Shown here: one piece after another, positions 3,068 to 35,402 of the stretch
Numbering within the stretch: the stretch's first letter is position 1
Layout of the letters: every line of letters starts with the position of its first letter
NCBI GenBank assembly: GCA_016873095.1
Contig: VGYC01000038.1
Span: 1-45,493 of the forward strand
Direction: 5' to 3'
Source: Planctomycetota bacterium
GTDB lineage: Bacteria > Planctomycetota > Planctomycetia > Gemmatales > Gemmataceae
DNA length: 45,493 nucleotides
Program-made: the position numbers and the translations under genes
The notes under the pieces: generated by a model
Database searches by the model: none
The model's input: the letters and a program-made list of their open reading frames with translations, nothing else
Told to the model about the DNA's origin: nothing

Positions 3068-3967
3068 GGGAGCGGTCGTGTCACGGTGTTTGCGCGTGCG
3101 GTTGCCAAGGGCCGGTGGGGCGGCAGCGGCAACGGCATTATCGTGCTGGACCCGGTGGCGCAGAACGCGCTCGATTCCAACGGCAGCGGTTCTGGCACCG
3201 TGACCGGCGGCGCAAGCGTGCTGGTGAACTCAAAGCATGCCTCGTCCGCGGCCCGGACCAGCGGCGGCGGCTCACTCACGGCGCCGCGGTTTCAGGTCAC
3301 CGGCGGCACTGTCGGTACGTGTAACGGCGTCGTGGAAACCGGCGTCCCACCCACTCCCGATCCCCTTGCCTACTTGCCGCTTCCCAGCGTGCCTCCCGAC
3401 GGCAAGATGACGCAGACCGGCATCGGCAACGGCAACAAACGCTACGTGCTTTCACCCGGCCGCTACCGCAATCTGCCAAACTTCAACGTCGGCGACGAGG
3501 TGGTCCTGAGGCAAGCCAGCGCCGGCAATGACGGCATCTTCTTCATCGACGGCGGCGGCTTCACGTCCACCGGCGCCAACATCACCATGGACCCCACCAC
3601 CAGCGGCGGCGTCATGATCTACAACAATCCTGCCAACGCCTCGAGTTCGCAGGGCATCAACATTTCCGGCAATGCGGCCGGCACCGTCAATCTTAGCGCC
3701 CTGACCAGCGGCACCTACGCTGGCCTGCTGTTCTTTCAAAACCGGGTGGCCGGACAAAGCATGTCCGTTTCCGGCAATGGCAGCTTCACCCTCAAGGGCA
3801 CGTTCTATCTCGCCAAGGCACTGCTGCAGGTGACGGGCAACGGCACCGCCACCATTGGTTCGCAGTACATCAGCCGCTTTCTCAGCATGGGTGGCGGCGG
3901 CGCCGTCACCATCGACTACACCGACGACGGAACCGCCCGGACCCGGGTCATCTCGCTGGTCGAATAG
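3068..3967 (+). pseudogene. C-terminal part of a second Tad/pilus-type surface protein, fused out of frame
   Basis: Downstream of the G-run at 3064-3068 the coding signal moves to the frame ending at TAA/TAG 3965-3967. The translation contains RWGGSGNGIIVLDPVAQNAL, VPPTPDPLAYLPLPS, NDGIFFIDGGGFTSTG, GVMIYNNP and TYAGLLFFQNR, then repeated glycine/asparagine turns (GNGSFTLKGTFY, GNGTATIGSQYI). This resembles the C-terminal beta-rich region of another exported planctomycete protein with a TadG-type N-terminus, which is absent here. There is no convincing start of its own. Adding one G to the run would join this piece to the VWA piece, and removing one base at 2588 would join the first two, giving about 940 residues. 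Fusion by deletion or assembly error are both possible. Confidence 0.55.
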
Positions 3968-3975
3968 TGCGTGCG

Positions 3976-4410
3976 TCAATGCTCCGGCAACAATTCGATG
4001 GCCAGGAGCGTCACGAGCTGGGCGCTGAAGAGCCGCAGGTGAACGCCTTCCAGTGCATAGGCGATGAAGATCTCGTCGGCGACGAGAAACGCTCCCCACA
4101 AGAGCAGCGATGTCGTGAACGCGGCATACAGGACCGTGCGTCCCGTTCCCCGGCCACGCAAGGCGCAGTACGCCCGCCAGAACAGCACGACGGCAATCCC
4201 TTCCCAGAGAATGACGCCGGCGAACAACACGCCGTTCACCAGGTCAGGCGTCCCGTAGCGAGCTGTTGTGTCCCTGATGAATTGCCAGTTGCCCGAGGCA
4301 AAAGCCCAGGACTCGTCCAGGACGCCCAGCTCCTTGCCGGTGTCCGCCAGGTTGCCGAGAAAGACGGCGCTCAGCCAGATTGCCCAGAAAAGCAGCAAGG
4401 CTCGCTTCAA
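3976..4410 (-). CDS. hypothetical small integral membrane protein
   Basis: This 144-residue protein is rich in hydrophobic segments: ALLLFWAIWLSAVFLG at the start, LVNGVLFAGVILWEGIAVVLF in the middle, VLYAAFTTSLLLWGAFLVAD, and LVTLLAIELL at the end, so about four membrane helices. I do not recognise a named family. The only start in this frame is TTG at 4410, with no clear ribosome binding site. Just upstream lies a run of eight A (4409-4416, T on the coding strand), and an ATG-started frame from 4459 (MVNASGENDN) would join the protein after a one-base slip in that run. The true start is therefore uncertain. It converges with the Tad locus (9 bases apart). Confidence 0.6.
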   Translation of the reverse strand: MKRALLLFWAIWLSAVFLGNLADTGKELGVLDESWAFASGNWQFIRDTTARYGTPDLVNGVLFAGVILWEGIAVVLFWRAYCALRGRGTGRTVLYAAFTTSLLLWGAFLVADEIFIAYALEGVHLRLFSAQLVTLLAIELLPEH

Positions 4411-4482
4411 AAAAAAGCACGCGGACCACGTTATCGTTCTCCCCGCTTGCGTTCACCATCGAGCAGCGGTTATTTTATCGAG

Positions 4483-4758
4483 ATGGGAAAAACGCAGCGC
4501 CAGCCTGAGCCAGCCGGCGACGAGTGGTTCGCCTACATGCTGCGGTGCGGCGACGGCACGCTCTACACCGGCATTACCAGGGACGTGAGCCGTCGTTGCC
4601 GGCAGCACAATTCCGGAACCGCCTCACGGTACACGCGTAGCCGAAGGCCGGTCGTGCTGGTGTATCAGGAATCCCTCACCAGCCGAAGCCTGGCCTTGAA
4701 GCGCGAGGCAGCTATCAAGGCCATGTCACGGCGACAGAAGCTGGGCCTGTTCCGTTGA
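4483..4758 (+). CDS. GIY-YIG nuclease family protein
   Basis: This 91-residue protein has a single small GIY-YIG domain: FAYMLRCGDGTLYTGITRDV (the two beta strands with Y-M-L and Y-T-G-I-T), then a conserved arginine and RQHNSGTASRYTRSRRPVVLVY, and EAAIKAMSRRQKLGL. This matches the UPF0213/YhbQ-type single-domain family, whose members are small putative nucleases of poorly known role. ATG 4483 was chosen because the domain follows about 15 residues later. The same frame stays open far upstream without family similarity. It is transcribed divergently from the membrane protein before it and precedes the exported alpha-toroid gene by 25 bases. Confidence 0.85.
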   Translation: MGKTQRQPEPAGDEWFAYMLRCGDGTLYTGITRDVSRRCRQHNSGTASRYTRSRRPVVLVYQESLTSRSLALKREAAIKAMSRRQKLGLFR

Positions 4759-4783
4759 CGGGACGCCGGCGGAGGCTGAACAC

Positions 4784-5770
4784 ATGCGCATGCTTGTCAC
4801 GCTCGTCATGGCCGGTTGCCCGTCGGTGGCGCTGGCCCAGGCGGCGCAACCGAAACAGGATGCAGTCGAGGCCGCAATCGAGCGCGGTCTCGGCTTCCTG
4901 GTCAAGGACGCGCTGGCCTGGAAAGCCACACACAAGTGCGTGTCCTGTCAACATGCCGCCCTGGTCATCTGGTCGATGCGCGAGGCCAGGCAGCGCGGCC
5001 ATGCCGTCGATGACCCGGTGCTCGCCGAGTTGACGAAGTGGGTCGCCGAATCGGGCGACGGCAAGACCAGCGTGCCGCGGCCCAAGGGCCTGCCAAAGGC
5101 ACTGAACGCAAAGGCCGTCTGGTTTGCCCTCGTACTGGCGGCCGATCCCAAGCCGGATGCCGCCGTGCACAAGAGCTTGACCGCGCTGTGGAACACGGTG
5201 AAGAGCGACCAGGCCGAGAAGGGCAACTGGGTGTCCTGGCCCGAGACTCGACCGCCGATCTTCGGCAATTCAGATGACAGCATGACCGCCCTGGCGACGC
5301 TGGCGCTTCTGCCCGCGGTGGCGACCGGGCTCGATGGAGCGAAGGCGGCGCGTGACAAGGGCGTGCGCTGGCTCACCGAAACCAGGACTGACGACGATCC
5401 TCAGTCGATCGCCATGCGCCTGGTTCTCTGGAAGCGCCTCGGACGCCCCGCCAAGGAATGGGAGCCGCTGGCCCGGCGGATCAAGGAACGGCAAAACGCC
5501 GACGGCGGTTGGAGCCAGGCCAAGAACATGGCCAGCGACGCCTGGGCAAGCGGGCAGGCACTGTATGCGCTGGCTCACGCCGGCAGCAGCGCCAGGGACC
5601 CGGCCGTCGCGCGCGGCCAGGCCTTCCTCGTCAAGACTCAGCGTGCCAACGGCTCCTGGCCAATGACATCGCGACCGACCAAACCCGGCGACACCGGCTC
5701 CCCGGGGCTGATCCCCATTACCGGCGCCGGCAGCGCCTGGGGTGTTCTGGGACTTGTACGCAGTCGCTGA
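4784..5770 (+). CDS. exported prenyltransferase/squalene-oxidase-repeat-like alpha-toroid protein
   Basis: This 328-residue protein begins with a signal peptide (MRMLVTLVMAGCPSVALAQA). The rest is mainly alpha-helical with repeats like those of terpene cyclase/prenyltransferase toroids: AIERGLGFLVKD, GVRWLTETRTDDDPQS, RIKERQNADGGWSQ, DAWASGQALYALAHAG and GQAFLVKTQRANGSWPM. The N-x-D-G-G-W and Q-x-x-x-G-S-W motifs are the QW-type repeats. CVSCQH near residue 49 is not a CXXCH haem site. Planctomycetes have many such exported toroid proteins of unknown role; an enzymatic cyclase activity is not supported because the D-x-D-D acid motif is not seen. A GGAGG ribosome binding site lies eight bases before ATG 4784. 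Confidence 0.75.
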   Translation: MRMLVTLVMAGCPSVALAQAAQPKQDAVEAAIERGLGFLVKDALAWKATHKCVSCQHAALVIWSMREARQRGHAVDDPVLAELTKWVAESGDGKTSVPRPKGLPKALNAKAVWFALVLAADPKPDAAVHKSLTALWNTVKSDQAEKGNWVSWPETRPPIFGNSDDSMTALATLALLPAVATGLDGAKAARDKGVRWLTETRTDDDPQSIAMRLVLWKRLGRPAKEWEPLARRIKERQNADGGWSQAKNMASDAWASGQALYALAHAGSSARDPAVARGQAFLVKTQRANGSWPMTSRPTKPGDTGSPGLIPITGAGSAWGVLGLVRSR

Positions 5771-5807
5771 TCATCTGCAACGTGAGATATCCTTCGGTAG
5801 CAGCGGC

Positions 5808-6626
5808 ATGAGTGAGCATTCCTCGATCGAATGGACCGACGCAACCTGGAATCCGGTGCGCGGCTGCACCAAGATCAGCCCCGGATGCGCGCATTGCTAC
5901 GCAGAGACGTTCGCCGAGCGCTTTCGCGGCGTGGCCGGCCACCCGTACGAGCGCGGCTTCGACCTGCGCCTCGTGCCCGACAAGCTTGCCGAACCGCTGC
6001 GCTGGGCCGGCGCCCGTATGATTTTTGTCAACAGCATGAGCGACCTTTTCCACGAAAACGTGCCCGACGACTACATCCTCGACATCGCCCGCGTCATGCA
6101 ACTGGCCGGCTGGCACACGTTTCAGGTCTTGACCAAGCGTTCCGAACGGCTGCGCGATCTGCTGCGCGGCCGGCTGCGCTTTGCCGCCGAGTTGCCACAT
6201 ATCTGGTGGGGCGTCAGCGTCGAGAATCGACGCCACGGCCTGCCGCGCCTGGAGCACCTGCGGAGCGCCCCGGCCGCCGTGCGCTTCCTTTCCGTCGAAC
6301 CACTGCTCGAAGACCTCGGCACGCTCGATCTTGCAGGAATCCACTGGGTGATCGTCGGCGGCGAGAGCGGTCCCGGCGCCCGCGTGCTGCAGCCCGAATG
6401 GGTGTTCAGCGTCCGCGATCAGTGCCAGGCCGCCGGCATTCCCTTCTTTTTCAAGCAGTGGGGCGGCCGGCGCAAGAAGGCAGCCGGCCGGACACTTGCC
6501 GGCAGGACTCACGATGAGCTTCCCCAGCGCGACGCCGGCCGGATGCCGTCGGCGCCTCCGGCCAAGATTCGCCTGGCGATGATCGACGCCTTTCAGCCGA
6601 GTCACTGTCATGAAACGGCTACGTGA
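5808..6626 (+). CDS. DUF5131 (phage Gp37/Gp68 family) protein
   Basis: This 272-residue protein opens with SSIEWTDATWNPVRGCTKIS and PGCAHCYAETFAERF, giving the three-cysteine signature C-x6-C-x2-C of the Gp37/Gp68 (DUF5131) family. Further family blocks are IFVNSMSDLFHENVPDDYI, TFQVLTKRSERL, WWGVSVENRRHGLPRLEHL, RFLSVEPLLEDLG, HWVIVGGESGPGARV and PFFFKQWGGR. The three cysteines suggest a metal or Fe-S site, and family members have been proposed to resemble radical SAM proteins. Elsewhere they are often found beside a TcmP partner gene, which is absent here. The gene ends immediately against the stop of the convergent sugar dehydrogenase-like gene. Confidence 0.9.
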   Translation: MSEHSSIEWTDATWNPVRGCTKISPGCAHCYAETFAERFRGVAGHPYERGFDLRLVPDKLAEPLRWAGARMIFVNSMSDLFHENVPDDYILDIARVMQLAGWHTFQVLTKRSERLRDLLRGRLRFAAELPHIWWGVSVENRRHGLPRLEHLRSAPAAVRFLSVEPLLEDLGTLDLAGIHWVIVGGESGPGARVLQPEWVFSVRDQCQAAGIPFFFKQWGGRRKKAAGRTLAGRTHDELPQRDAGRMPSAPPAKIRLAMIDAFQPSHCHETAT

Positions 6627-8651
6627 TCATTTCGCCGCGCGGAACTCCAGGATGCCACGCCCGGACGCCGTCGTCGTCAGGAAATACACCTCGCCGTCCT
6701 CGTCCTCGCCGAAAGACAGGACGGGCACGCCTGGATCGGGGATGGGCCGGTTGGCGACGACGCGCTGCTTGCCTTCATCGTAGCGCAGGGCCCAGATCTT
6801 GCCCGTGATGTAGTCGGCGTACAGGTACGAGCCCTGGAGTTCCCGGAGGCGCTTGCCGCGATAGACCGGACCGCCGGTGATGGACTTGCCGATATCGTGA
6901 TGGTACTCCCAGATCGGGTCGATCAGGTCCTTGCGCGGCCCGACGCCGCGCGCACCGAACGGATGCAGACCCTCGCGGATGCTCCAGCCGTAGTTGCCCC
7001 CCCTGGTGATGATGTTGATCTCCTCGTAGAGGTTTTGCCCCACGTCCGCGGCCCACAGCTTGCCGGTCTTGCGGTCGAAGGCCATCCGCCAGACGTTGCG
7101 CAGTCCGTAAGCCCAGGTTTCGGGAAGCGCGCCGGCCTTGCCCACGAACGGATTATCCTCTGGCACGGCGTACATCTTGCCTGACGACTTGCGGTCCACA
7201 TCGATGCGCAGGATCTTGCCGAGCGGCGTCTTGAGGTTTTGCCCGACGTTGTGCGGGTCGTTGGCCGCGCCGCCGTCGCCCAGTGCAACGTACAGAAAAC
7301 CGTCGGGCCCGAAGCAGATGGTGCCGCCGTCGTGATTCCAGTAAGGACGGCGGACCGTCAGTAACACCTCCTCCGATTTCGGGTCGGCCTTGCTGGGATC
7401 ATCTTTGCTGACCTTGAAGCGCGACAGCACATTGGTCATCGGTGCTGCGCGCGTGGTATAGAACGCGAAGAACTGCCCGTTGCTGGCGTATCGCGGATGA
7501 AAGGCCAGGCCCAGGAAGCCTTCCTCGTTCTGCTTGTCGGAATAGACCACGCGCTTCTGGATGTCGAGAAAGATGTCGGTCTTTTTTGCCCCGGGACCGC
7601 CGGGGAATACGTGGACCACGCCGTGCTGCGTGGCGACGAACACGCGCTTCGAGCCGTCGCCGGCGTGCGTCAGCACCAGCGGCCGATGCGTGTTGACCTT
7701 GCCGTCGTCCGTCTCTCCCTTCCAGCCGGTCCACGTCAGGTCGGGAAACGCGACGGCTGTTTTCAGCTGCAACGGCGTCTCATCAATGTCATGTCCTGGG
7801 ACGCGGACGGGCACGGCGGTGAGCGTACCGGCCTTCATTTCCGGAACCAGAATCGACTTGCCGGTCGGTGCCAGGCAGATGTCGGCCGCCGACTCGAAGC
7901 CGGACGCCAGCAGCACCGGCTTCTGGCCGGGACGCGGGATGACGAACAGCTTGCCGTTCTTCCAGTCGCTGATGAACAGCCGGCCGTGCATGTCCCAGGC
8001 AAGCCCGTCGCCGCCGCCGAAACCGCCTGCGACCCTGGTGGCCGTCCCGTCGCCGATGCGGATGCGCTGCAGTTCGCCCGTGCCGAAATCCACCATGAGC
8101 AGGTGCGACTTGCCGTCCATGACCAGTCCGTTGGGCGTATGCAGCTGCGCTTGCTGCCGCTTGCCATGCGCCACCACGGTGATCTTGCCCTTCTGCGGCA
8201 CGCGAAAGAGTGCGCCGGCGCCGCCCTTGAGATCGCCCGAATCCGAAACATAGAGCGTCCCCTCCTCATCGACAGCGATGTCGTTGAGGAACGACGGGGC
8301 CCAGGGAAAATCGCGCTCGCCGCGAAACACCTCGGCCTTGCCCTTGGCGTCGATCCGCCAGATACGCTTGTTGTCGGTCACGAACAGCCATTGCACCCAG
8401 AAAACCATGCCCTTGGGATCGTCCAGTCCGGTGACGAACGGCACGGCCTTGTCCTTGACGAGGACAAGCACGCGGCCATCGCCATCCTTGCCGAACTCGC
8501 CGATCTCGGTGCTGTAGATGCGGCGATCGCCACCGACGGCCACCGACTCCGGATTCTTCAAGCCGGTGACCAGTGGCCTGGGTCGCTGTTCATCAGCCCG
8601 CGCGACGGGAATGCACAGAGCCAGCGAGGCAATGCAAACGATACGCAGCAT
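6627..8651 (-). CDS. exported PQQ-dependent sugar dehydrogenase-like protein with two beta-propellers
   Basis: This 674-residue protein has a signal peptide (MLRIVCIASLALCIPVARA). Residues about 25-290 form an NHL/SMP-30-like propeller (GLKNPESVAVGG, GLDDPKGMVFW, FLNDIAVDEEGTLYVSDSG, TPNGLVMDG). Residues about 310-670 form a glucose/sorbosone dehydrogenase (YliI/Asd-like) propeller with EEGFLGLAFHPRYASNGQFF, WNHDGGTICFGPDGFLYVALGDGG, PLGKILRIDVD, AYGLRNVWRMAFD, WAADVGQNLYEEINII and GGNYGW. Related enzymes oxidise aldoses in the periplasm with PQQ, but many planctomycete members lack a proven substrate. A strong AAGGAG lies five bases before ATG 8651. The join of the two propellers is unusual compared with E. 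coli YliI, which has only the second. Confidence 0.85.
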   Translation of the reverse strand: MLRIVCIASLALCIPVARADEQRPRPLVTGLKNPESVAVGGDRRIYSTEIGEFGKDGDGRVLVLVKDKAVPFVTGLDDPKGMVFWVQWLFVTDNKRIWRIDAKGKAEVFRGERDFPWAPSFLNDIAVDEEGTLYVSDSGDLKGGAGALFRVPQKGKITVVAHGKRQQAQLHTPNGLVMDGKSHLLMVDFGTGELQRIRIGDGTATRVAGGFGGGDGLAWDMHGRLFISDWKNGKLFVIPRPGQKPVLLASGFESAADICLAPTGKSILVPEMKAGTLTAVPVRVPGHDIDETPLQLKTAVAFPDLTWTGWKGETDDGKVNTHRPLVLTHAGDGSKRVFVATQHGVVHVFPGGPGAKKTDIFLDIQKRVVYSDKQNEEGFLGLAFHPRYASNGQFFAFYTTRAAPMTNVLSRFKVSKDDPSKADPKSEEVLLTVRRPYWNHDGGTICFGPDGFLYVALGDGGAANDPHNVGQNLKTPLGKILRIDVDRKSSGKMYAVPEDNPFVGKAGALPETWAYGLRNVWRMAFDRKTGKLWAADVGQNLYEEINIITRGGNYGWSIREGLHPFGARGVGPRKDLIDPIWEYHHDIGKSITGGPVYRGKRLRELQGSYLYADYITGKIWALRYDEGKQRVVANRPIPDPGVPVLSFGEDEDGEVYFLTTTASGRGILEFRAAK

Positions 8652-8710
8652 GAAGACTCCTTCGCGAGTGATTCACCGGCCTCACGTCGAACGTCGAACA
8701 GGATCAAACC

Positions 8711-8777
8711 ACGGATCACGCGAATGAGCACGGATCGAGAATCCCTCACGATTTGTTTTCCGATTCGTGTCATCCGT
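8711..8777. repeat. imperfect inverted repeat upstream of the sugar dehydrogenase-like gene
   Basis: The arms are 8711-8725 (ACGGATCACGCGAAT) and 8763-8777 (ATTCGTGTCATCCGT), which match at 13 of 15 positions when one is reversed. The gap between 8652 and 8870 carries the 5' region of the reverse-strand gene starting at 8651 and no gene of its own. The ACGGAT-CAC-G-GAAT wording resembles sequences repeated around planctomycete genomes, but only this one copy is visible here. Confidence 0.45.
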
Positions 8778-8870
8778 AATATGTTGATTGAGTGTCTGGC
8801 GCGAAGCCTACCCATGACAAGGTATGACACCGAGCGGCCAATCGGAAGAGGCGAGGAGCGGCGCAGCCGT

Positions 8871-10517
8871 TCACGTGATCGTGTGCACGATCATCGGCTC
8901 CTTGCTGCCGCGCAGCTGCTGCGGGCCCAGGCTTGCGAGCGGGACAGGGTTTTGCAGGGCTTTCCGGGTCGCCTCGCTCAGGACGAGGGTGGCGCCGCCG
9001 GTCTTGGTGAGTTCCTCGAGGCGCTGCGTGAGATTGACGGTCTCGCCGATGGCCGTGAATTCCATGCGCTTGGGGGCGCCGATGCAGCCGACCAGCGCCG
9101 GTCCCGTGTGAATGCCGACGCCGATGCGCAGCGGCGGCTGCCCATTCTTCTCCAGATCGCGATTGAGATGTTCCAGCCGTTCCAGCAGATCGCGCGCGGC
9201 GGCAACGGCCAGGTCGGCATGATCGGGGCGCGGCGGCGCGCCGAACAGCGCCATGAAGCCGTCCCCCAGAAACTTGTCCACCCAGCCGCCCTTGCCATCC
9301 ACGGCCTGCACCGACAGCGACAGGAAGCGATTGAGCAGACTCACGACGTGCTCGGGCGATTTGCCGGCGGACCGGCTCGTGAAGCCGCGGATATCGGCGA
9401 ACATCACGGTGATGTCCTGCACCTTGCCCCCCAGCTCGGAGTAGTTCCGCAAGATCTCGTCACGCCGGTCCGGTCCGACGAACAAACCGAAGGTTTCGCG
9501 CACGTGCTTGCCATGCCCCAGATCCTCCGCCATCTTGTTGAACGAATCGGTCAGCCGGCCCCACTCATCGGAGCGCAGGCCGGCAATGCGGACATCGAAA
9601 TTCTCAAGGGAGATCTCGCGGGTGGCGATGATGTGCTTCTCGAGCCAGCTCGCCACGTCACGCCCCACCATCCAAAAGATCATGCCGCCGGTGACGATGC
9701 CGAACACGACCACGCCCACCGACAGCGGGATCAAGCCGGCGAGGAACTTTGCGAGTTGTTCCGGATCATCCGGCGGCCACAGCAGGTTGGCGGCAATCAG
9801 GGTCAGCACGATGATCGGACCCAGCGCCACGGCGCCCCAGAGAAACCAGAGACGCAGCTGGAACGGCATCTGGATCGCGCCCTCGACCTCCACCGGCCGG
9901 ATGTCCGTGAAGATGCGCGGATACAGGTAGACCATCAGATAGCGCTCGAGAAACACGAACGCCTGAAAAGTCGTGACCACCGCGGACACGGAGAAGGAAG
10001 CCAGGAACTGCACCGGTATCATCGGCGAGAAGCGCGCATCGCCGCCGAGCAGGTAGATCATGATCGGAAAGAAGAAACCGCCCGGCAGCCACAGCAGCGC
10101 GTTGACATAGAGCTGGATGATCGGCAGGTTCACGAGCCGGCGCTGCGCCGCGCGCCTGACGTCCTCCGGCACCTCGCCGCGCTGCTGCGCTTGGAAGAAT
10201 CGATGCAGCGGCAGGATCAGCCACACGCACACGCCCATGCCCAGCAGCCACGTCAGTCCGGAATAGGTTACCGACGAGATCAAGAACGCCTGTTGCTGTT
10301 CCGCGGCCTTGCAAAAGCGCTCGACGATGAGATTCTCGTTATAGAGAAGGTTGGCGATGGACCACAGCGCATTGGGCCAGATGATGACGATGAAGAAGCA
10401 CACGACGGGGTGGTTCTCGGCCAGTCGCGTCCACAAGGTAGGCGCCGGCGGATGCGACAGCGAGCGGTCGCGGATGATCGTGCTGGCCTTCTTCGGGGCG
10501 CCATTCATTTCGCGCAT
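8871..10517 (-). CDS. membrane-bound adenylate cyclase (class III) with HAMP domain
   Basis: This 548-residue protein is predicted to make cAMP at the inner membrane. Six or so hydrophobic segments occupy residues 35-285 (PVVCFFIVIIWPNALWSIAN, LTWLLGMGVCVWLILPL and others). A HAMP linker follows (about 286-335, ending RLTDSFNKMAEDL). The catalytic domain has metal-binding aspartates in FADIRGF (D375) and LGDGF (D419), transition-state N495 and R499 in GETVNLTQRLEE, and the adenine-selecting pair K415 (VDKFLGDG) and T488 (EFTAIG). All key residues are present. The frame stays open upstream to 10769, but ATG 10517 (MREMNGAPKK) just precedes the first credible sequence; ATG 10508 is an alternative. 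It lies downstream of the carboxylase on the same strand, 190 bases away. Confidence 0.88.
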   Translation of the reverse strand: MREMNGAPKKASTIIRDRSLSHPPAPTLWTRLAENHPVVCFFIVIIWPNALWSIANLLYNENLIVERFCKAAEQQQAFLISSVTYSGLTWLLGMGVCVWLILPLHRFFQAQQRGEVPEDVRRAAQRRLVNLPIIQLYVNALLWLPGGFFFPIMIYLLGGDARFSPMIPVQFLASFSVSAVVTTFQAFVFLERYLMVYLYPRIFTDIRPVEVEGAIQMPFQLRLWFLWGAVALGPIIVLTLIAANLLWPPDDPEQLAKFLAGLIPLSVGVVVFGIVTGGMIFWMVGRDVASWLEKHIIATREISLENFDVRIAGLRSDEWGRLTDSFNKMAEDLGHGKHVRETFGLFVGPDRRDEILRNYSELGGKVQDITVMFADIRGFTSRSAGKSPEHVVSLLNRFLSLSVQAVDGKGGWVDKFLGDGFMALFGAPPRPDHADLAVAAARDLLERLEHLNRDLEKNGQPPLRIGVGIHTGPALVGCIGAPKRMEFTAIGETVNLTQRLEELTKTGGATLVLSEATRKALQNPVPLASLGPQQLRGSKEPMIVHTIT

Positions 10518-10707
10518 CACCTGCGGGCTGCTGACCTGTCCGTGATTCGTGCCGAACCGCGACACAAACTTGATTTTACGGATGGAATGCCACGGTAGAG
10601 ACTCTGTCACGTGGCAATCGACAGAAGATGCAAAGCGCCAGCGCCTGAAACGCCGGCAACCTCCTGGAAAACAGCGTGCGCTCTTCAATTTTGACGTAGG
10701 TGGAGAA

Positions 10708-12279
10708 CTATACCTGCAACACACCCGTCCGGAACTGCCGACCGTCGTCATGGCGGGTCGCGACCGCAAGTGCCGTCAGCAATGCCTGGCGCGTCGTGGC
10801 CGGTTCAATGATTGCGTCCACCCACAGCCGGGCGGCGGCATAGCGGACGTCGGTTTGCTCGTCGTAGCTGGCTTCCACCTTGCGGCGCAATTCTTCCAGT
10901 TCCGCGGCATCCGGTTCGTGGCCGGCGCGGCGCAGCGCTGAGACGGTGATGTCCAGCAGCGTGCTGGCGGCTTGCTCGCCGCCCATCACAGCGTAGCGCG
11001 CCATCGGCCAGGCGAAGATGAAACGCGGGTCGAAAGCCTTGCCGCACAGGGCGTAGTTGCCAGCGCCGTACGACCCGCCGAGGATGACTGTGATCTTCGG
11101 CACGACGCTGTTGGCAATGACGTTGACCAGCTTGGCGCCGGCGCGGATGATGCCGGCGTGCTCCGATTGCCGGCCAACCATGAAACCGTTCACGTCTTGC
11201 AGAAAGATCAGCGGCGTGCGCGTCTGGTTGCAATCCATGATGAAGCGGGCCGCCTTGTCGGCGCTATCGACGTAGATGACGCCGCCGAACTGCAGGGAAC
11301 CGTCGGGCAGCTTGCAGCGCCGCCGCTGATTGGCGACGATGCCCACCGGCACGCCCCCAAGCCGCCCGTAGCCGCATACGAGCGTCTGGCCGAATTCCGC
11401 CTTGTATTCGTCGAACGGCCCAGCGTCGAGTATGCATGGCAGCAGCTGGCGGACGTCGTGCTCCTGCCTGGCTTCTTCCGGAACCAGTTCGCCGATGTCC
11501 GCCGGCGGACGCGCCGTCGGCGCCTCGAAGTCGACCTTCTGCGCATCGGAGGGCAAGGCGGTGACGAGGCGGCGGAGGCGATCCAGGCATGTCGGCTCGT
11601 CGGGGTCACGGAAGTCGATGGTGCCGCTGATAGCCGCGTGCATCTGGGCGCCGCCCAGATCCTCGTGCGACACGGTCTGGCCGATGGCCGCCTTCACCAG
11701 CGCCGGACCGGCCAGATACAACCCGCTCCCATCCGTCATCAGCAGCTTGTCACACAGCACGGGCAGATAGCCGCCGCCGGCGACGCAGTTGCCCAGGATG
11801 GCGGCGAACTGCGGAATCCCCGCCGCCGAGATGACAGCGTTGTTACGAAAGATCCGGCCAAAATCGTCCTCGTCCGGAAAGACCTCGTCTTGCAACGGCA
11901 GGAACACACCCGCGCTATCGACGAGGTAAATGAGCGGCAGCCGATTTTCGAGGGCGATGCGCTGGGCGCGCAACACCTTCTTGGCCGTGAGCGGAAAAAA
12001 GGCGCCGGCCTTCACCGTCGCGTCATTGGCAATCACCATCACCTGCCTGCCGGCGACGCTGCCGATGCCGGTGACCACGCCGGCCGCCGGCGCCCCGCCC
12101 CAGTCGGCATACATGTTCCACGCCGCCCACAACCCCAGCTCGAAGAATCCGGCGTCCGCATCGAGCAGCCGGACCAGGCGCTCGCGCGCGCTGAGTCGCT
12201 TCTTGGCATGCTGACGCTCGATGGCCTTGGCGCCGCCGCCGAGCTTGATCTGCGCTTCTTCCTGGAGAAGGTCGTGCAT
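10708..12279 (-). CDS. acyl-CoA carboxylase, carboxyltransferase (beta) subunit
   Basis: This 523-residue protein belongs to the biotin-dependent carboxyltransferase family of the methylcrotonyl-CoA, geranyl-CoA and propionyl-CoA carboxylases. It would move CO2 from biotin to an acyl-CoA. Visible family blocks: GGGAKAIERQHAKKRLSARE, IGSVAGRQVMVIANDATVKA, RLPLIYLVDSAGVFLPLQDE, GNCVAGGGYLPVLCD, QTVSHEDLGGAQMH, then in the second half PVGIVANQRR, PLIFLQDVNGFMVG, ILGGSYGAGNYALCGKAFDP and AVMGGEQAAS. The order and the VFLPLQ/E-x-x-F-P-D segments look most like MccB-type subunits. No biotin carboxylase (alpha) gene is in the window. ATG 12279 has AGAGG just upstream; an earlier in-frame ATG at 12312 would add 11 residues. 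Confidence 0.9.
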   Translation of the reverse strand: MHDLLQEEAQIKLGGGAKAIERQHAKKRLSARERLVRLLDADAGFFELGLWAAWNMYADWGGAPAAGVVTGIGSVAGRQVMVIANDATVKAGAFFPLTAKKVLRAQRIALENRLPLIYLVDSAGVFLPLQDEVFPDEDDFGRIFRNNAVISAAGIPQFAAILGNCVAGGGYLPVLCDKLLMTDGSGLYLAGPALVKAAIGQTVSHEDLGGAQMHAAISGTIDFRDPDEPTCLDRLRRLVTALPSDAQKVDFEAPTARPPADIGELVPEEARQEHDVRQLLPCILDAGPFDEYKAEFGQTLVCGYGRLGGVPVGIVANQRRRCKLPDGSLQFGGVIYVDSADKAARFIMDCNQTRTPLIFLQDVNGFMVGRQSEHAGIIRAGAKLVNVIANSVVPKITVILGGSYGAGNYALCGKAFDPRFIFAWPMARYAVMGGEQAASTLLDITVSALRRAGHEPDAAELEELRRKVEASYDEQTDVRYAAARLWVDAIIEPATTRQALLTALAVATRHDDGRQFRTGVLQV

Positions 12280-12323
12280 GGAGCCTCTGGTTTGCTGGAT
12301 GCGGAACGTCATCTGCTGTCGTA

Positions 12324-12344
12324 GGACAAGCGGCTCGCTTGTCC
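12324..12344. repeat. perfect short hairpin in a divergent promoter region
   Basis: GGACAAGC and GCTTGTCC form a perfect eight-base-pair stem around the loop GGCTC, in the gap between the divergent carboxylase gene (start 12279) and the cytochrome gene (start 12441). It lies in the 5' leader of one or both genes. It could be an operator or a small repeat; there is no T-run to suggest a terminator. The flanking bases GTA and AC make it similar in style to the hairpin at 36215-36247. Confidence 0.5.
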
Positions 12345-12440
12345 ACAGTGCCCTCCAAGACATTGACGCCGCTGTCCCGCAAGATTCGACTACAATGACT
12401 GCCGGAAACGGCGTCACTGAATGACACCTCGGAGTGAACC

Positions 12441-13841
12441 ATGCGACGACACCTCGTGGCACTCATGTTGCTTGCAGTGTGCGGGCTCCACATTGGCGCC
12501 GATTCGTATCCCGGGAAAGTGCTTCGCGAGGAGGTGCCTCGCAAGGAGGCGCCTCGCAAGGAAATGCCGGATGCCGTTGCGCGTGGCCGGGATGCGCTTC
12601 GTGGCCAACCAGCCATGAACCCGGCGATGTGGTCTGCCTCCGCTCTCGACCGCGTCTGGCGGCAATGGGGCCTCAAGGAAAAACCCGCCGATTTTCAGCG
12701 GCGCTTGCGCGACCGCTATGGCCTGCATTCTGCCAGCTACGACAACGATGCGCTGCCCATGGGCTTGCACTGGTCGCGCGGCATCACCGGCAAGGGCGTG
12801 GTCAACGATTGCTTGCTGTGCCATGCCGGCGTCGTCGCCGGGCAGACCATCATCGGCCTGGGCAATGCCTCGCTCGATCTGCAAGGCCTGTTCGACGAAC
12901 TAAGCGCCTCGGAGACCCTGAGCATCAAGCTGCCCTTTCATTTCAGTCACGTGCGCGGCACCATCGATCCCATCGGCCCCGTCGCCTACCTCATGGGCCT
13001 CCGCGATGCCGATCTGAACGTGCAAAAGCCGGTGTCGCTCGACATCTCGGACAATGTGTGCAGCGACCCGCCGGCCTGGTGGCTACTCAAGAAAAAGAAG
13101 ATCCGCAACTGGACCGGCAGCGTGGACATGCGCGCCGCCCGCATCGACATGGTCAACCTGCTCACGCCCTTCAACAGTTCCGACCACATCAAGAAGCAGG
13201 AGCCGGTGTTCAAGGACATCCACGCTTTCATCATGACTGTCGAGCCGCCCAGGTATCCGTTCCCGATCGATGCCAGGCAGGCGGCGCGCGGCCGGGACAT
13301 CTTCAACCGCGCCTGCGCGCGTTGCCATGGAACCTATGGCCCGGACGCCAGGTACCCGAACAAGGTCGTGCCACTCGAGGACATCGGCACCGACGCGGCT
13401 CTTGCCCTGGCCATCACCCGGAAGAACCTGGACTACCTCAACAAGAGCTGGTTCGCCCAGGAGAAGGGGCCCGAGGGCCAGGATTTTCGTATCGCCGAGC
13501 AGCACGGCTATCAGGCCCCGCCCCTCGACGGCGTCTGGGCAACGGCGCCGTACTTTCACAACCGCTCAGCGCCGACTCTTTATAACGTCCTCAACTCCAG
13601 GACCAGGCCCAAGATCTTCACCCGCTCCTACGAAACCGGCAAGGATGACTACGATGCCATCAACGTCGGCTGGAAGATCGCCATACTCGACGAATCTCCC
13701 AGCCCGAAGCTGCACGCCATCGAACGCCGCAAGATCTACGACACCACGCTCCCCGGTCGCAGCAATGCCGGCCACACCTTCGGCGATTCCCTGAAGGAGG
13801 ACGAACGGCGGGCGGTGATCGAGTACCTCAAGGGGCTGTGA
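12441..13841 (+). CDS. exported dihaem c-type cytochrome, RoxA-like
   Basis: This 466-residue protein starts with a signal peptide (MRRHLVALMLLAVCGLHIGA) and carries two CXXCH haem sites, CLLCH at 124-128 and CARCH at 292-296. The C-terminal half has the segment QAPPLDGVWATAPYFHNRSAPTL and RKIYDTTLPGRSNAGHTFG, shared with the RoxA/cytochrome-c-peroxidase-like family, which includes rubber oxygenase. The function in planctomycetes is not known; it may be an electron-transfer protein or a peroxidase/dioxygenase in the periplasm. The charged run with PRKEAPRKE after the signal peptide is a likely linker. GGAG stands seven bases before ATG 12441. Its 3' end overlaps the convergent small gene by 14 bases. 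Confidence 0.82.
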   Translation: MRRHLVALMLLAVCGLHIGADSYPGKVLREEVPRKEAPRKEMPDAVARGRDALRGQPAMNPAMWSASALDRVWRQWGLKEKPADFQRRLRDRYGLHSASYDNDALPMGLHWSRGITGKGVVNDCLLCHAGVVAGQTIIGLGNASLDLQGLFDELSASETLSIKLPFHFSHVRGTIDPIGPVAYLMGLRDADLNVQKPVSLDISDNVCSDPPAWWLLKKKKIRNWTGSVDMRAARIDMVNLLTPFNSSDHIKKQEPVFKDIHAFIMTVEPPRYPFPIDARQAARGRDIFNRACARCHGTYGPDARYPNKVVPLEDIGTDAALALAITRKNLDYLNKSWFAQEKGPEGQDFRIAEQHGYQAPPLDGVWATAPYFHNRSAPTLYNVLNSRTRPKIFTRSYETGKDDYDAINVGWKIAILDESPSPKLHAIERRKIYDTTLPGRSNAGHTFGDSLKEDERRAVIEYLKGL

Positions 13842-31562: not shown

Positions 31563-32408
31563 TCACTTGCGGAAAAAGAACTCCTCCGCGGTTCGGCGGA
31601 GTAGCCAGTCCTTGTCATCGTCGCTGAGGCACTTGAGACGACGGCGGACCAGGTCGATGCTGTCGCGATAGGTGTGCTTGTCCTGCACCTGGAAGGGGCA
31701 ATCGCTTTCCCACATGCAACGGCGCGGGCCGAATGCTTCGACGACGCGCTGGATCAGCGGCGCCAGGTCGGTGTACGGCGGCGCTTTCTTGCCGAGCGCG
31801 TAGAAGGCGCCCACCTTGAGCATGACGCGTTTGTGCTTGGCCAGCGCGCACAGCGCCTTCACGTCCTTGTCGGCGATCTTGCCGTTGGCGCCGATGCGGC
31901 AGATGTGGTCGATGATCACCGGCGTGTCCGGGAACTGCTTGCACATGCGATCCAGTTCGGGCAGGGCGTCCGGATTGATGAGACAGCTCATCGCCAGGTT
32001 GAGCTTGGCGCCGGCCTTGAACATGCGGCCATAGCCTTCGGGCTGCAGCCAGCGTGCTGGCGGCTGCCGGCTCAGCTCGGGATGAATGCGAAAGGCCCGC
32101 ACCCGCCGCCTGGCCAGCTCCGCCATGCGCCGTTCCGGCTCCTTGGCGAGCGGATCGATGACGGCCGTGCCGGAAAACACCTCCCGGTACAGGTCCATGG
32201 AGTCGAGCATGTAGCTGTTGTCGAAGCCGTAGAAGCTCATCTGGATCAGGTTGATGCGCGTCACGCCCTCGGGCCGGCTGTGCTTGAGCAATTCCTCCGG
32301 CGTGAACGAACGCGGCATCATCTGCTCGCGCTTGTAGCCCCTGGCGAGCGGATAATGGGACGTGTCCGGAGTCCAGACGTGGACATGTGCGTCGATGAAG
32401 TTGCTCAT
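31563..32408 (-). CDS. amidohydrolase family protein (TIM-barrel, 2-pyrone-4,6-dicarboxylate lactonase-like)
   Basis: This 281-residue protein starts MSNFIDAHVHVWTPDTSHYP, with His8 and His10 forming the metal-binding HxH motif of amidohydrolases. Further features are VIDPLAKEPERRMAELARRR, HPELSRQPPARWLQPEGYGR, TPVIIDHICRIGANGK, and a C-terminal ESDCPFQVQD, where the aspartate would complete the metal site. This resembles the amidohydrolase_2 family. The substrate is unknown. It converges with pyrE, 20 bases away. ATG 32408 is chosen because the HxH motif follows directly; the upstream ATG 32444 would add 12 residues that look non-coding. Confidence 0.8.
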   Translation of the reverse strand: MSNFIDAHVHVWTPDTSHYPLARGYKREQMMPRSFTPEELLKHSRPEGVTRINLIQMSFYGFDNSYMLDSMDLYREVFSGTAVIDPLAKEPERRMAELARRRVRAFRIHPELSRQPPARWLQPEGYGRMFKAGAKLNLAMSCLINPDALPELDRMCKQFPDTPVIIDHICRIGANGKIADKDVKALCALAKHKRVMLKVGAFYALGKKAPPYTDLAPLIQRVVEAFGPRRCMWESDCPFQVQDKHTYRDSIDLVRRRLKCLSDDDKDWLLRRTAEEFFFRK

Positions 32409-32587
32409 GGGGGGTAGTGTAAATAGGCGGGGACGAAGAGGCAACGCCCCAGTTTGCCGTGCCTGGCACAGCGTGCGCAGTCACGAAGCAATGAGGCAAA
32501 AGACGCACAAGTCGCGGACGATCATGCGTAGCTGGGGTAGAATCGCCTGGACTGGAGTCGCCCGGCGATCCTTGCGGGGGGCTGAAG

Positions 32588-33853
32588 ATGGGACCAGCAG
32601 TTGCGTGGAAAGTGTGCGGGACCTTGTTGACGCTGGGGCTTGCTTCCCCGCTGGCGCAGGCACGAGACGACGACTTCGCGGCGCTGCAGCGCATGATCCT
32701 GCCCGGCAAGGGGGATTCACGCTGGCTCGGTGTCGCCTGGCAGCCGGCCAGCAACATCTGGGCGGCGCGGCAGAAGGCGGCGCGCGAGGGCAAGCCCATC
32801 TTTCTTTGGTACATGGCCGGCGAACCGCTGGGCCCGTGCTGAGCGCAGGGCTACCTAGACGGCCGTGCTGCCGTCAATCGCGTCGCCGCCGACATCAACG
32901 ACAAGTGCATCAACATTCCCATCAACGGCCACATGCTCTCCTGGCTGGCGAAGACCGACGGCGTCGCCGGCGCGTTCATCAAGGCCAATCGCCATCCCTC
33001 CGGCGGCAACTGCTTCGTGCTCACCACGCCAGGCGGCAAGAAGCTGGCAGGCGGCAACGGCCCGCAAGGCGCCGAGCACGCGCTCAAGCTTGGCTTCGAA
33101 CAATGGCAAAAGCTCAGCGAAGCAGAACGCAAGAATCTGCCGCCCGGCCAGGAGATTCAGCCGCCCGAGGCGAAGCGCTGCGCGCCGCCACCGGGCGGGC
33201 TGATCGTGGCCACCTACGTCCGCAACCTGAAGCGCGATGCCGATGGCAAGCTGGCCCGCATCACCCGCGACGACATCAAGGACCGGAAACGCTATCCGGA
33301 CTGGAGCATGGTCTACACCGAGCCGGCGCGGTTCAACCTCTGGCTCACCGAGACGGAGTGGAAGTCGTTGCTCCCCGCCGGCGCCGACCGGGGCAAGGTC
33401 ATCGAGGTGCCGGAACCCATTCGTCGTCGCATCTTCTGCTACCACCTGGCCGACGGCACCTACGGCCTGCCGGGGCACTGGCAGCCGGCGCACATTCGCT
33501 CCGGCACGATGTCGCTGACCGTCGAAGAGACTTCGCCGCTCCTGCGTCTACGACTGCGCGGCGCCGCGCTGCTGGCCACGGATGCCGATCTCGCCAAAGC
33601 CCATCACGGCTACGACGTCAAGCTCGACGGCCTGCTGGAATACGACCCGGCCAAGAAGCGGTTCACGCGCTTCGACATCGCGGCCATCGGCGACTGCTGG
33701 GGCGGCGACTGGGAAGGCGGCCGCTTCAAGCGTCCCGGCCGAGCGCCGCTGGGCGTCGCCTTCCAGCTTGTTCCCGGCAATAGCGCGGTGGATCGCGTGC
33801 CGCCGCTGGTGCACATGGACCGAAAACAGGTGTACGACGCCTACTTTCGATAG
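32588..33853 (+). CDS. exported thioredoxin-like selenoprotein, in-frame TGA read as selenocysteine (candidate)
   Basis: ATG 32588 (GGGGG upstream) opens a frame with a signal peptide (CGTLLTLGLASPLAQA) and the thioredoxin-like strand GKPIFLWYMAGEPLGPC. TGA 32840-32842 comes directly after this cysteine. The same frame then runs on to TAG 33851-33853, giving 421 residues with Cys84-Sec85. AQGYLDGRAAVNRVAADIND and VAGAFIKANRHPSGGNCFVL follow naturally as the rest of the thioredoxin-like domain. The GPC-[TGA] site occupies the position of the CGPC motif, whose first cysteine is leucine here. The rest (TYVRNLKRDADGKLARITRD, WLTETEWKSLLPAG) is a second, unrecognised region with PEPIRRRIFCYHLADGTYGL, and ends FQLVPGNSAVDRVPPLVHMD. 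A hairpin follows TGA at the expected distance. Expected location: periplasm. Confidence 0.75.
32858..32875 (+). promoter_or_regulatory. candidate bacterial SECIS element for the thioredoxin-like gene
   Basis: GACGGC (32858-32863) and GCCGTC (32870-32875) form a perfect six-base-pair stem around the loop CGTGCT (32864-32869). The loop begins 21 bases after TGA 32840-32842 and has G at its second position, followed by T. Both the distance and the loop G fit the bacterial SECIS model. The stem is shorter than at 25895-25932, and such hairpins are not rare in GC-rich DNA. Confidence 0.6.
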
Positions 33854-33924: not shown

Positions 33925-33963
33925 CAGAGCCCGATCTTCTTTGTTCGCGCCAGCATTGAAGTA

Positions 33964-33981
33964 TGGTAGAATTCTCTACCA
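33964..33981. promoter_or_regulatory. perfect palindrome upstream of the DUF1501 gene
   Basis: TGGTAGA and TCTACCA are perfect seven-base inverted arms around ATTC, 15 bases before the GTG start and just ahead of the ribosome binding site GGAGG (33987-33991). It is AT-richer than its surroundings. The shape and place suggest an operator for a dimeric regulator, or an element of the 5' leader. Confidence 0.5.
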
Positions 33982-33995
33982 AATATGGAGGCTAC

Positions 33996-35402
33996 GTGTT
34001 GATCATCCACGATGCTGCCACGAGGCTGTGCGATCAGCTGACGAGACGCGATTGGCTGCACATTGGCGGACTGGCGGCACTCGGTCTGACAGCACCGCTG
34101 CTGTCGCAAGCGCGCGGCCAAACGCGCGGATCGCCAGGGCGGGCCGGGTCGTTCGGCAAGGCGCGGTCCTGCATCATCGTGGGATTGACAGGCGGGCCGC
34201 CACAGCACGAGACGTGGGATCCGAAGCCGGAGGCCCCGGAGGAGATTCGGGGACCGTTTCGCCCGATCGCGAGTTCCGTTCCGGGGCTGCAGGTCTGCGA
34301 GTTGATGCCGCGGGTTGCCCAGCAAGCGCATGAGTTCGCGGTGTTGCGGGCCGTGTCGACGCGTGACAACGCCCATTCCTCGAGCGGCTATTACATGCTG
34401 ACGGGCGTGGCGCATGTGCCGCCGAACGCCGAGAGCGTGCGGCCCGGCGCCCCCAACAACTGGCCGAGCTTGGCGGCGCTGGTCAATCGGCTCAAGTCGC
34501 TGCCCGGAGGCATGCCCGCTTCGGTGGTGCTGCCCGAGCACATCTGGAACGATGGCAACATTCCGTGGCCCGGCCAGGATGCCGGCTTTCTCGGCCGCGC
34601 CGCCGATCCATGGCTCGTGCATTGCGATCCGTCGGCGGCGAACTTTCAGATCCCGACCGTCGCGATGCCGCCCGAGATGACGCCGCTGCGCTTCGATGAA
34701 CGCCGCTCGCTCCTGGAGCAGGTCAACCGACATCTCGCTGGACTCGAGCGGAGTTCCGCAGCGGTGAACTACGGTCATCAGTTCCGGCAGGCTGTCGACA
34801 TGATGCGGACCGGCAACGTGCGCCGGGCCTTCGACCTGCAGCAGGAACCGGCGGCCCTGCGTGATCGTTACGGTCGATCGCGCTATGCGCAGAGCGTGCT
34901 GCTGGCGCGGCGGCTGGCCGAAGCCGGCATCTCCCTGGTCCAGATCAACTGGACACGGATGGGGCCAAATCTGCCGAACCAGGGCGGCTGGGACACGCAT
35001 GAAAAGAACGCCGAATCGCTGCGCGGCCACCTGATGCCGCTCCTGGATCGCGCAGTCAGCGCCCTGATCGAGGACCTCGCGGAGCGCGGCCTGCTCGAGG
35101 AGACACTGGTCGTGTGGATGGGCGAATTCGGCCGCACTCCGCGGCACAACGCCAACGGCGGGCGCGATCACTGGGGCTCGGTCTTCTCGCTGGCGCTGGC
35201 CGGAGGCGGCGTCCGCGGCGGTGTCGTCCATGGCGCGTCGGATCGCATCGGCGGCTACCCGCGTGAAGGAATGGTCACGCCGCAAGACCTCACGGCGACC
35301 ATTCTCCACCTGCTCGGCATCGCGCCGGGGACCGAAGTCCACGACTCCCTCGGCCGCCCCTTCGTCGCGAGCCGCGGCGAGGTGATCCGGCAAATCGTGT
35401 AG
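33996..35402 (+). CDS. DUF1501 domain protein with Tat signal
   Basis: This 468-residue protein begins with a twin-arginine signal (LTRRDWLHIGGLAALGLTAP). The DUF1501 domain of the alkaline-phosphatase-like superfamily follows: KARSCIIVGLTGGPPQHETW, NAHSSSGYYMLTGVAH, NNWPSLAALVNRLKSLPGG, NQGGWDTHEKNAESL and VVWMGEFGRTPRHNANGGRD with HWGSVFSLALAGGGVRGGVV. Many planctomycete genomes encode dozens; they are probably sulfatase-like exported hydrolases, often next to a DUF1549/DUF1553 cytochrome gene, which is missing here. GGAGG (33987-33991) stands four bases before GTG 33996 and seven before TTG 33999; both are possible starts. Confidence 0.88.
   Translation: MLIIHDAATRLCDQLTRRDWLHIGGLAALGLTAPLLSQARGQTRGSPGRAGSFGKARSCIIVGLTGGPPQHETWDPKPEAPEEIRGPFRPIASSVPGLQVCELMPRVAQQAHEFAVLRAVSTRDNAHSSSGYYMLTGVAHVPPNAESVRPGAPNNWPSLAALVNRLKSLPGGMPASVVLPEHIWNDGNIPWPGQDAGFLGRAADPWLVHCDPSAANFQIPTVAMPPEMTPLRFDERRSLLEQVNRHLAGLERSSAAVNYGHQFRQAVDMMRTGNVRRAFDLQQEPAALRDRYGRSRYAQSVLLARRLAEAGISLVQINWTRMGPNLPNQGGWDTHEKNAESLRGHLMPLLDRAVSALIEDLAERGLLEETLVVWMGEFGRTPRHNANGGRDHWGSVFSLALAGGGVRGGVVHGASDRIGGYPREGMVTPQDLTATILHLLGIAPGTEVHDSLGRPFVASRGEVIRQIV

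Follow-up and report, generated by a model that had tools for sequence, protein, structure and literature searches.

The DNA analysed here, a stretch of 45,493 nucleotides referred to as the window, raises the question of whether an in-frame TGA at 32840–32842 ends a gene or is read within one as selenocysteine (Sec). Beginning with the ATG at 32588, the frame on the + strand runs through 84 codons to the TGA and then through 336 codons to a TAG at 33851–33853, and reading of the TGA as Sec gives a protein of 421 residues before the TAG stop (32588–33853). The codon immediately 5′ of the TGA encodes Cys84, in the context GEPLGPC-TGA-AQGY, exactly as described in a sequence-only reading of the locus, which took the product for a candidate exported thioredoxin-like selenoprotein with adjacent Cys and Sec. 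That claim is now supported by the conservation of the TGA, by a covarying hairpin behind it, by the presence of selA, selB and selD and by the modelled fold, and we conclude, with a probability of roughly 0.95, that 32588–33853 encodes a selenoprotein of the Planctomycetota/Verrucomicrobiota family described below.

Reading frame and conservation of the TGA codon

The GC contents at the three codon positions are 0.67/0.56/0.82 on the 5′ side of the TGA and 0.68/0.48/0.85 on the 3′ side, and both resemble those of the downstream neighbour (0.70/0.51/0.81); the likeness of the two sides bears out the earlier claim that the frame stays open for 336 codons with protein-like content. This neighbour is a DUF1501 protein (E = 6.4e-92) at 33963–35402 on the + strand, and the divergent neighbour upstream is an amidohydrolase (PF04909, E = 8.6e-34) at 31566–32408 on the − strand. 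A longer rival open reading frame (ORF) in another frame, 32362–33783, was rejected, as its codon-position GC of 0.80/0.67/0.53 shows the wrong phase.

Standard annotation would take the TGA as a stop, and the ORF listing contains a 306-residue ORF that begins with the ATG at 32933 and ends at 33853; the TGA would then be a true stop, a sequencing error or the mark of a broken gene, and the 306-residue ORF a separate gene or debris. We regard this as extremely improbable, since the codon-phase GC runs on across the TGA, the start at 32933 falls at residue 116, within the modelled thioredoxin fold, and the TGA is found at the same codon in many independent genomes, including the complete chromosome of an isolate (NZ_CP042425.1, locus L248).

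The conservation of the codon was followed by searching the read-through protein, that is, both halves as one query, against 95 genomes of the same family, with the window's own included. Matches were obtained in 45 of the 95. The two nearest relatives show 62 and 61% identity across residues 19–420 and carry one TGA each; four family members were found in the host genome of the window gene, likewise with one TGA each. The full-length relatives that were examined form one frame through the TGA, which answers the earlier concern that the halves might turn out to be separate genes.

The site was counted in 69 loci of the 95-genome search, comprising most of the full-length rows and all four non-TGA rows that cover the site; rows that were split or partial were left out, as were five weak but long ones (each listed with one TGA). 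The 79 segments of these loci, some of which overlap, have TGA in 75 cases and Cys, Asp, Ser and Arg in one case each. A second set was made up of 29 loci from other genomes, taken from a profile search of the phylum, and of at least 79 loci from a contig scan with the seeds LWEMDGH and DDW[YF]QRRR, both of which come from the main subgroup; TGA was no selection criterion, and all 109 segments from the 108 loci picked regardless of TGA have it at the site. When both sets are joined, TGA occupies the Sec85 codon in 158 of the 162 distinct segments, which excludes chance. Twenty further loci, several of which were fetched because TGA was missing, gave 21 segments (TGA 13, Ser 5, Asp 2 and Pro 1), among which the alignment of L256 and L257 around the Sec site is unsure by a few residues. 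Across all sets, including these 20 loci added partly for being without TGA, the 179 distinct near-full-length rows have TGA in 167 cases, Ser in six, Asp in three and Cys, Arg and Pro in one each. One member, L077, carries a second TGA.

TGA also terminates genes of the family (terminal stops: TGA 61, TAG 56, TAA 42), so that UGA is not simply reassigned. The TGA counts, the terminal stops and the codon-phase GC together led us to reject a broken gene, a sequencing error, two genes and a reassigned UGA. Judged by comparison of sequences, the TGA at codon 85 is maintained as a sense codon.

The hairpin downstream of the TGA

A perfect hairpin, GACGGC-CGUGCU-GCCGUC, is found at 32858–32875 on the + strand, with a stem of 6 bp, a 6-nt loop whose second base is G, and a distance of 21 nt from the TGA to the loop, precisely as the sequence-only reading had it. 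The model of the bacterial SECIS element in PMC13188914 comprises a loop of 3–9 nt, a stem of 4–16 bp, a G at loop position 1 or 2, a distance of 16–37 nt from the UGA and a minimum free energy of −7.5 kcal/mol or lower, and the window hairpin agrees with it in loop, stem, G, spacing and energy. Folded alone, the hairpin reaches −9.1 kcal/mol (z = −2.82; three of 200 shuffles as good). The whole downstream region of 48–57 nt was no stabler than its shuffles (z = 0.45 and 0.56). As folding of the single sequence was unremarkable, comparison among relatives had to decide.

Defining a SECIS-like hairpin as a stem of at least 5 bp with a loop of 3–14 nt, a G in loop place 1 or 2, a position 16–37 nt from the TGA and an energy of −5 kcal/mol or lower, such a hairpin was found 3′ of 127 of 158 Sec codons, compared with 612 of 1896 control codons in the same genes. 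In the main subgroup, where the TGA is followed by Asn-Asn, the gapless consensus (n = 101) folds at −6.63, compared with a control mean of −0.04, and none of 67 controls is as low; for the subgroup of 18 members to which the window gene belongs, the consensus folds at −3.99, compared with 0.0 in controls, again with 0/67 as low. The consensus hairpins of three small subgroups were no better than controls, with 20/67 controls as low for GCUTAG, 7/67 for NEPLGVCUSA and no structure in the subgroup termed 'other'.

Covariation was examined in 97 distinct 39-base stretches from the main subgroup, with slid partners serving as controls. The stem cells are paired in 90.7% of cases, compared with 33.7–44.5% for slid partners; cells altered on both sides number 113, compared with 9–30; and the covariation score is 0.606, compared with 0.107–0.168; in none of 500 shuffles was either this degree of pairing or this score attained. 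All 97 sequences have G as the second loop base, which alone proves nothing because this G occupies the second position of a conserved Arg codon; it is the covariation of the stem that carries the argument. On this evidence from aligned sequences, the hairpin downstream of the TGA is under selection as an RNA structure.

Selenium machinery

The genome of the window contains SelB (381.4 bits; cut-off 242.25), SelA (571.4 bits; cut-off 267.9) and SelD (286.6 bits; cut-off 125), with selB and selA adjoining on contig C81. A complete selC was not found in its assembly (548 contigs, 95.5% complete), in which no selC match reached E ≤ 1e-9; of 17 weak RF01852 matches, the six best that were checked were Leu, Ser or no called tRNA. 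By BLAST, however, an exact copy of 40 bases of a relative's selC, forming its 5′ half and ending at the anticodon loop, was located at G000:C6:70507-70546 (8508–8547 of locus L170), and the 3′ half was not found in the assembly. Nor did a complete selC emerge when two regions, the contig stretch with selAB and the locus of the half gene, were scanned with Rfam. The half gene may be due to an assembly break, a remnant of integration or a rearrangement; a remnant of an attachment site is no more than a guess, and no integrase was found next to it among the seven ORFs looked at. Near the half gene, at 9665–10405 of L170 on the + strand, a single ORF combines a low-molecular-weight tyrosine phosphatase domain with a SUI1 translation-factor domain. 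The sequence-only reading had counted a lack of selB and selC as evidence against itself: selB is present, and selC is represented in the assembly by its 5′ half only.

The incomplete selC lends some support to readthrough without selenium, in which a near-cognate tRNA (Trp, Arg or Cys) would read the UGA, as do three TGA-bearing genomes in which no good match to SelA was obtained. This view sets itself against the covarying SECIS-type hairpin and against SelA, SelB and SelD in the genome, and among the relatives selC is found at E ≤ 1e-9 in 77 of the 95 same-family genomes, with a UCA anticodon loop in all 30 of the genes fetched. In the phylum sample, moreover, a TGA-bearing match at E ≤ 1e-20 was obtained in 87 genomes, of which 84 have SelA (E ≤ 1e-70), compared with about 155 of the 305 others; the corresponding Fisher p of 1e-17 is merely a guide, because the genomes are related and the 305 may hide carriers. 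The three exceptions are G308 and G358, without a good SelA match, and G374, with a SelA match of only 2.6e-20. Selenium-free readthrough is therefore considered very improbable, and insertion of Sec at 32840–32842 is the reading followed below. By the established route of bacterial Sec insertion, SelB carrying Sec-tRNA would bind the hairpin and insert Sec85 at the TGA.

Distribution and members without Sec

When 392 genomes of the phylum were searched with a profile and up to four candidates were scored in each, 229 genomes gave a match at E ≤ 0.001, many of the weak matches probably being only thioredoxin-like, and at least 87 genomes proved to have a strong TGA-bearing member. At least 79 titled loci come nearly all from Planctomycetota, with many Gemmataceae, or from Verrucomicrobiota (Akkermansiaceae, Roseibacillus and Verrucomicrobiales); labels that fit neither phylum, among them Rhodobacteraceae, are few and may reflect mis-binning. 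The isolate Limnoglobus roseus PX52, whose complete chromosome is the record NZ_CP042425.1 named above, carries a member with the site GHPLGCG-U-NNVV, and plasmid records gave no family match. In the genome G062, where 18 of 21 candidates were scored, 15 family matches were found, and on its contig C62 (locus L059) seven family genes of several subgroups lie on one strand at 3283–13502, each with one TGA; one of the seven is the 61% relative of the window gene. Such an expansion, with up to 15 matches per genome and seven genes in a row, lies outside the Thermodesulfobacteriota, Synergistota and Clostridia, which are named as the richest in selenoproteins in PMC13188914.

Where Sec is absent, the site holds Ser, Asp, Arg or Pro in 11 rows, compared with Cys in one (n = 179); the latter, L018 (G033:C23), has the sole true Cys (TGC) at the Sec position. 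Three of the 11 rows (L256, L257 and L259) belong to genomes in which SelA was not matched (G268, G191 and G390, which are 86, 86 and 61% complete), whereas matches to SelA, SelB or selC are present in the genomes of the remaining eight; disappearance of the machinery is therefore not enough by itself to account for the loss of Sec. In a tree built by a quick method, with long branches flagged, the rows without Sec fall in several places, with seven changes; the tree is unrooted and hence does not show the direction of change. We consider it as likely as not that this is a large exported family whose ancestor had Sec and whose Sec cannot, in practice, give way to Cys. The pattern is not absolute, since L018 has Cys at the site and thioredoxin-like proteins with Cys occur farther afield.

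According to PMC12013277, Cys homologues now seem to exist for every known selenoprotein, and families that lack them may be filtered out. The scarcity of Cys forms here runs counter to this assumption behind current selenoprotein finders, and it makes the question 'why selenium?' testable. Annotation pipelines would probably record genes of this kind as truncated.

Protein architecture and active site

The N-terminal region, about residues 1–26 (32588–32665, + strand), is a probable signal peptide, with Lys8, a hydrophobic core and the sequence PLAQA followed by RD; of 156 relatives to which a crude test was applied, 147 have a hydrophobic 11-mer ahead of the domain. An AlphaFold2 model built with 65 relatives (pLDDT 89.0, pTM 0.88) places a thioredoxin-fold domain at about residues 43–177 (32714–33118, + strand), which superimposes on 3f9u_A (VIA-align Z = 10.6, r.m.s.d. 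2.6, 117 residues aligned) and on poplar thioredoxin h (3d21_A, Z = 9.4). With the whole model as the query, Foldseek gave no match at E ≤ 0.001, the best being DsbH (2ju5) at E = 0.023. The C-terminal β-rich domain, residues 196–421 (33173–33850, + strand), has a pLDDT of 87.3 when folded alone; Foldseek gave no match to it in the PDB at E ≤ 0.001, and its best VIA-align score, Z = 6.3 to OmpA, is not convincing.

In the model, strand 71–75 leads into the loop with PLGPC-Sec, and helix 86–106 starts directly after Sec85; alignment with 3ira sets Sec85 against the leading Cys of CHWC (a weak match, E = 0.0071). The motif L-G-P-C-U had earlier been taken for the CGPC site of thioredoxins with Leu in place of the first Cys, and here the assignment has to be revised: Sec85 itself takes the place of the attacking first Cys, just before the helix, and the register that would make Cys84 the second Cys of CGPC is rejected on both the 3ira alignment and the model. 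Cys84 (TGC, 32837–32839, + strand) is the likely partner of Sec85, since 59 of the 65 aligned members have exactly one Cys at −1 (31 members) or −2 (28 members) of the Sec column, never at both; five Sec members and the Cys member L018 lack Cys at these positions. At +3, where the window gene has Gly, Cys is found in only two of the 65 members (L086 and L090); in these two the site is of UxxC type and both −1 and −2 lack Cys, the partner Cys apparently having moved to the opposite side. As regards the cis-Pro that faces the active site in classical thioredoxins, the alignment shows Pro in none of the 65 members at columns 140–142, immediately ahead of strand 142–146, and in 30 of them at column 137.

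Proposed function

The protein would be exported to the periplasm or beyond, where Sec85, ahead of the active-site helix of the thioredoxin fold, may act as the attacking selenolate and Cys84 may resolve the intermediate through a selenenylsulfide with Sec85, in keeping with the Cys at −1 or −2 of most relatives; the β domain may supply substrate or partner specificity. A putative periplasmic selenol oxidoreductase activity linked to thiols or peroxides is the function that we consider fairly probable. The main rival is a selenoprotein that handles a soft metal (Hg, Cu or As), with the Cys-Sec or Cys-x-Sec pair serving to bind or deliver it in place of thiol or peroxide redox chemistry, as suggested by several CU-motif metal and organometal selenoproteins in Table 1 of PMC13188914 (MerB-like SaoL, HgcA, CopZ-like form 2 and MbdU). 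Against metal handling stand the position of Sec at the nucleophile of the modelled thioredoxin fold, the five of 65 members that have Sec but no Cys at −1 or −2, and the finding of no metal-resistance family beside the gene among the best 25 of 113 Pfam families listed, and we take it to be possible but rather unlikely.

Neighbouring genes were surveyed in 120 of 125 flanking ORFs at 34 loci, which were picked by length, with five of more than 900 residues dropped, and some of which may be spurious. No Pfam family occurs in more than three of the 120, DUF1501 being found in two ORFs flanking relatives, and derivation of the function from gene neighbours was given up for this reason.

Comparison with known families

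In the accessible part of the 2026 review PMC13188914, where planctomycetes are not mentioned, none of the 119 prokaryotic selenoprotein families of Table 1 fits, except by the motif name of TsoC, the 'NEPxGxxU motif selenoprotein' (NF045708). One subgroup, with NEPLGVCU, fits that name literally; identity with TsoC found no support from profiles, as NF045708 matched none of the 65 members at E ≤ 0.1, and the window protein and eight relatives gave no match even at E ≤ 1, in a copy of NCBIfam from which the model may be absent. Selenoproteins in two planctomycetes from Porphyra are reported in PMC4807772, and a term search of PMC5029168 gave no match. Within the accessible parts of PMC13188914, PMC4807772, PMC12013277 and PMC5029168 the family is apparently uncatalogued, and the supplement of PMC4807772 may list a member. 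The thioredoxin-like selenoprotein Sec.1 (PF13192), with the motif CxU in PMC13188914, resembles the main subgroup, which likewise has Cys-x-Sec; PF13192 was not among the matches of the 65 members at E ≤ 0.01.

Of the members with listed scores, none came up to a Pfam or NCBIfam cut-off; the best E values among the remaining members of the 65 were 7.8e-5 for PF13899, 8.6e-4 for PF03190 and 0.0063 for NF041383, which by scaling lie below the cut-offs. Thioredoxin_7 (PF13899) and Thioredox_DsbH, DUF255 (PF03190) share with the family the thioredoxin fold and the order GKP, strand, loop, Cys or Sec, and helix, and at E ≤ 0.01 they touch six and seven of the 65 members, respectively, with listed scores of 14–17.7 bits compared with a cut-off of 27. 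Unlike them, the new family is almost without a CxxC-type site and has the additional C-terminal β domain. The Trx7/PDZ selenoprotein (NF041199) and the VPGUxxT selenoprotein (NF041383) are thioredoxin-like selenoproteins by name and model; at E ≤ 0.1 they touch three and seven of the 65 members, respectively, and the listed members score 10.5–14.4 bits compared with cut-offs of 300 and 275.

Mammalian thioredoxin reductase carries the sequence Gly-Cys-Sec-Gly in a flexible C-terminal tail and can form a selenenylsulfide. It shares the adjacent Cys-Sec pair with the protein of the window, but whereas the pair lies in a C-terminal tail in the reductase, here it is placed at the start of a helix in a thioredoxin fold.
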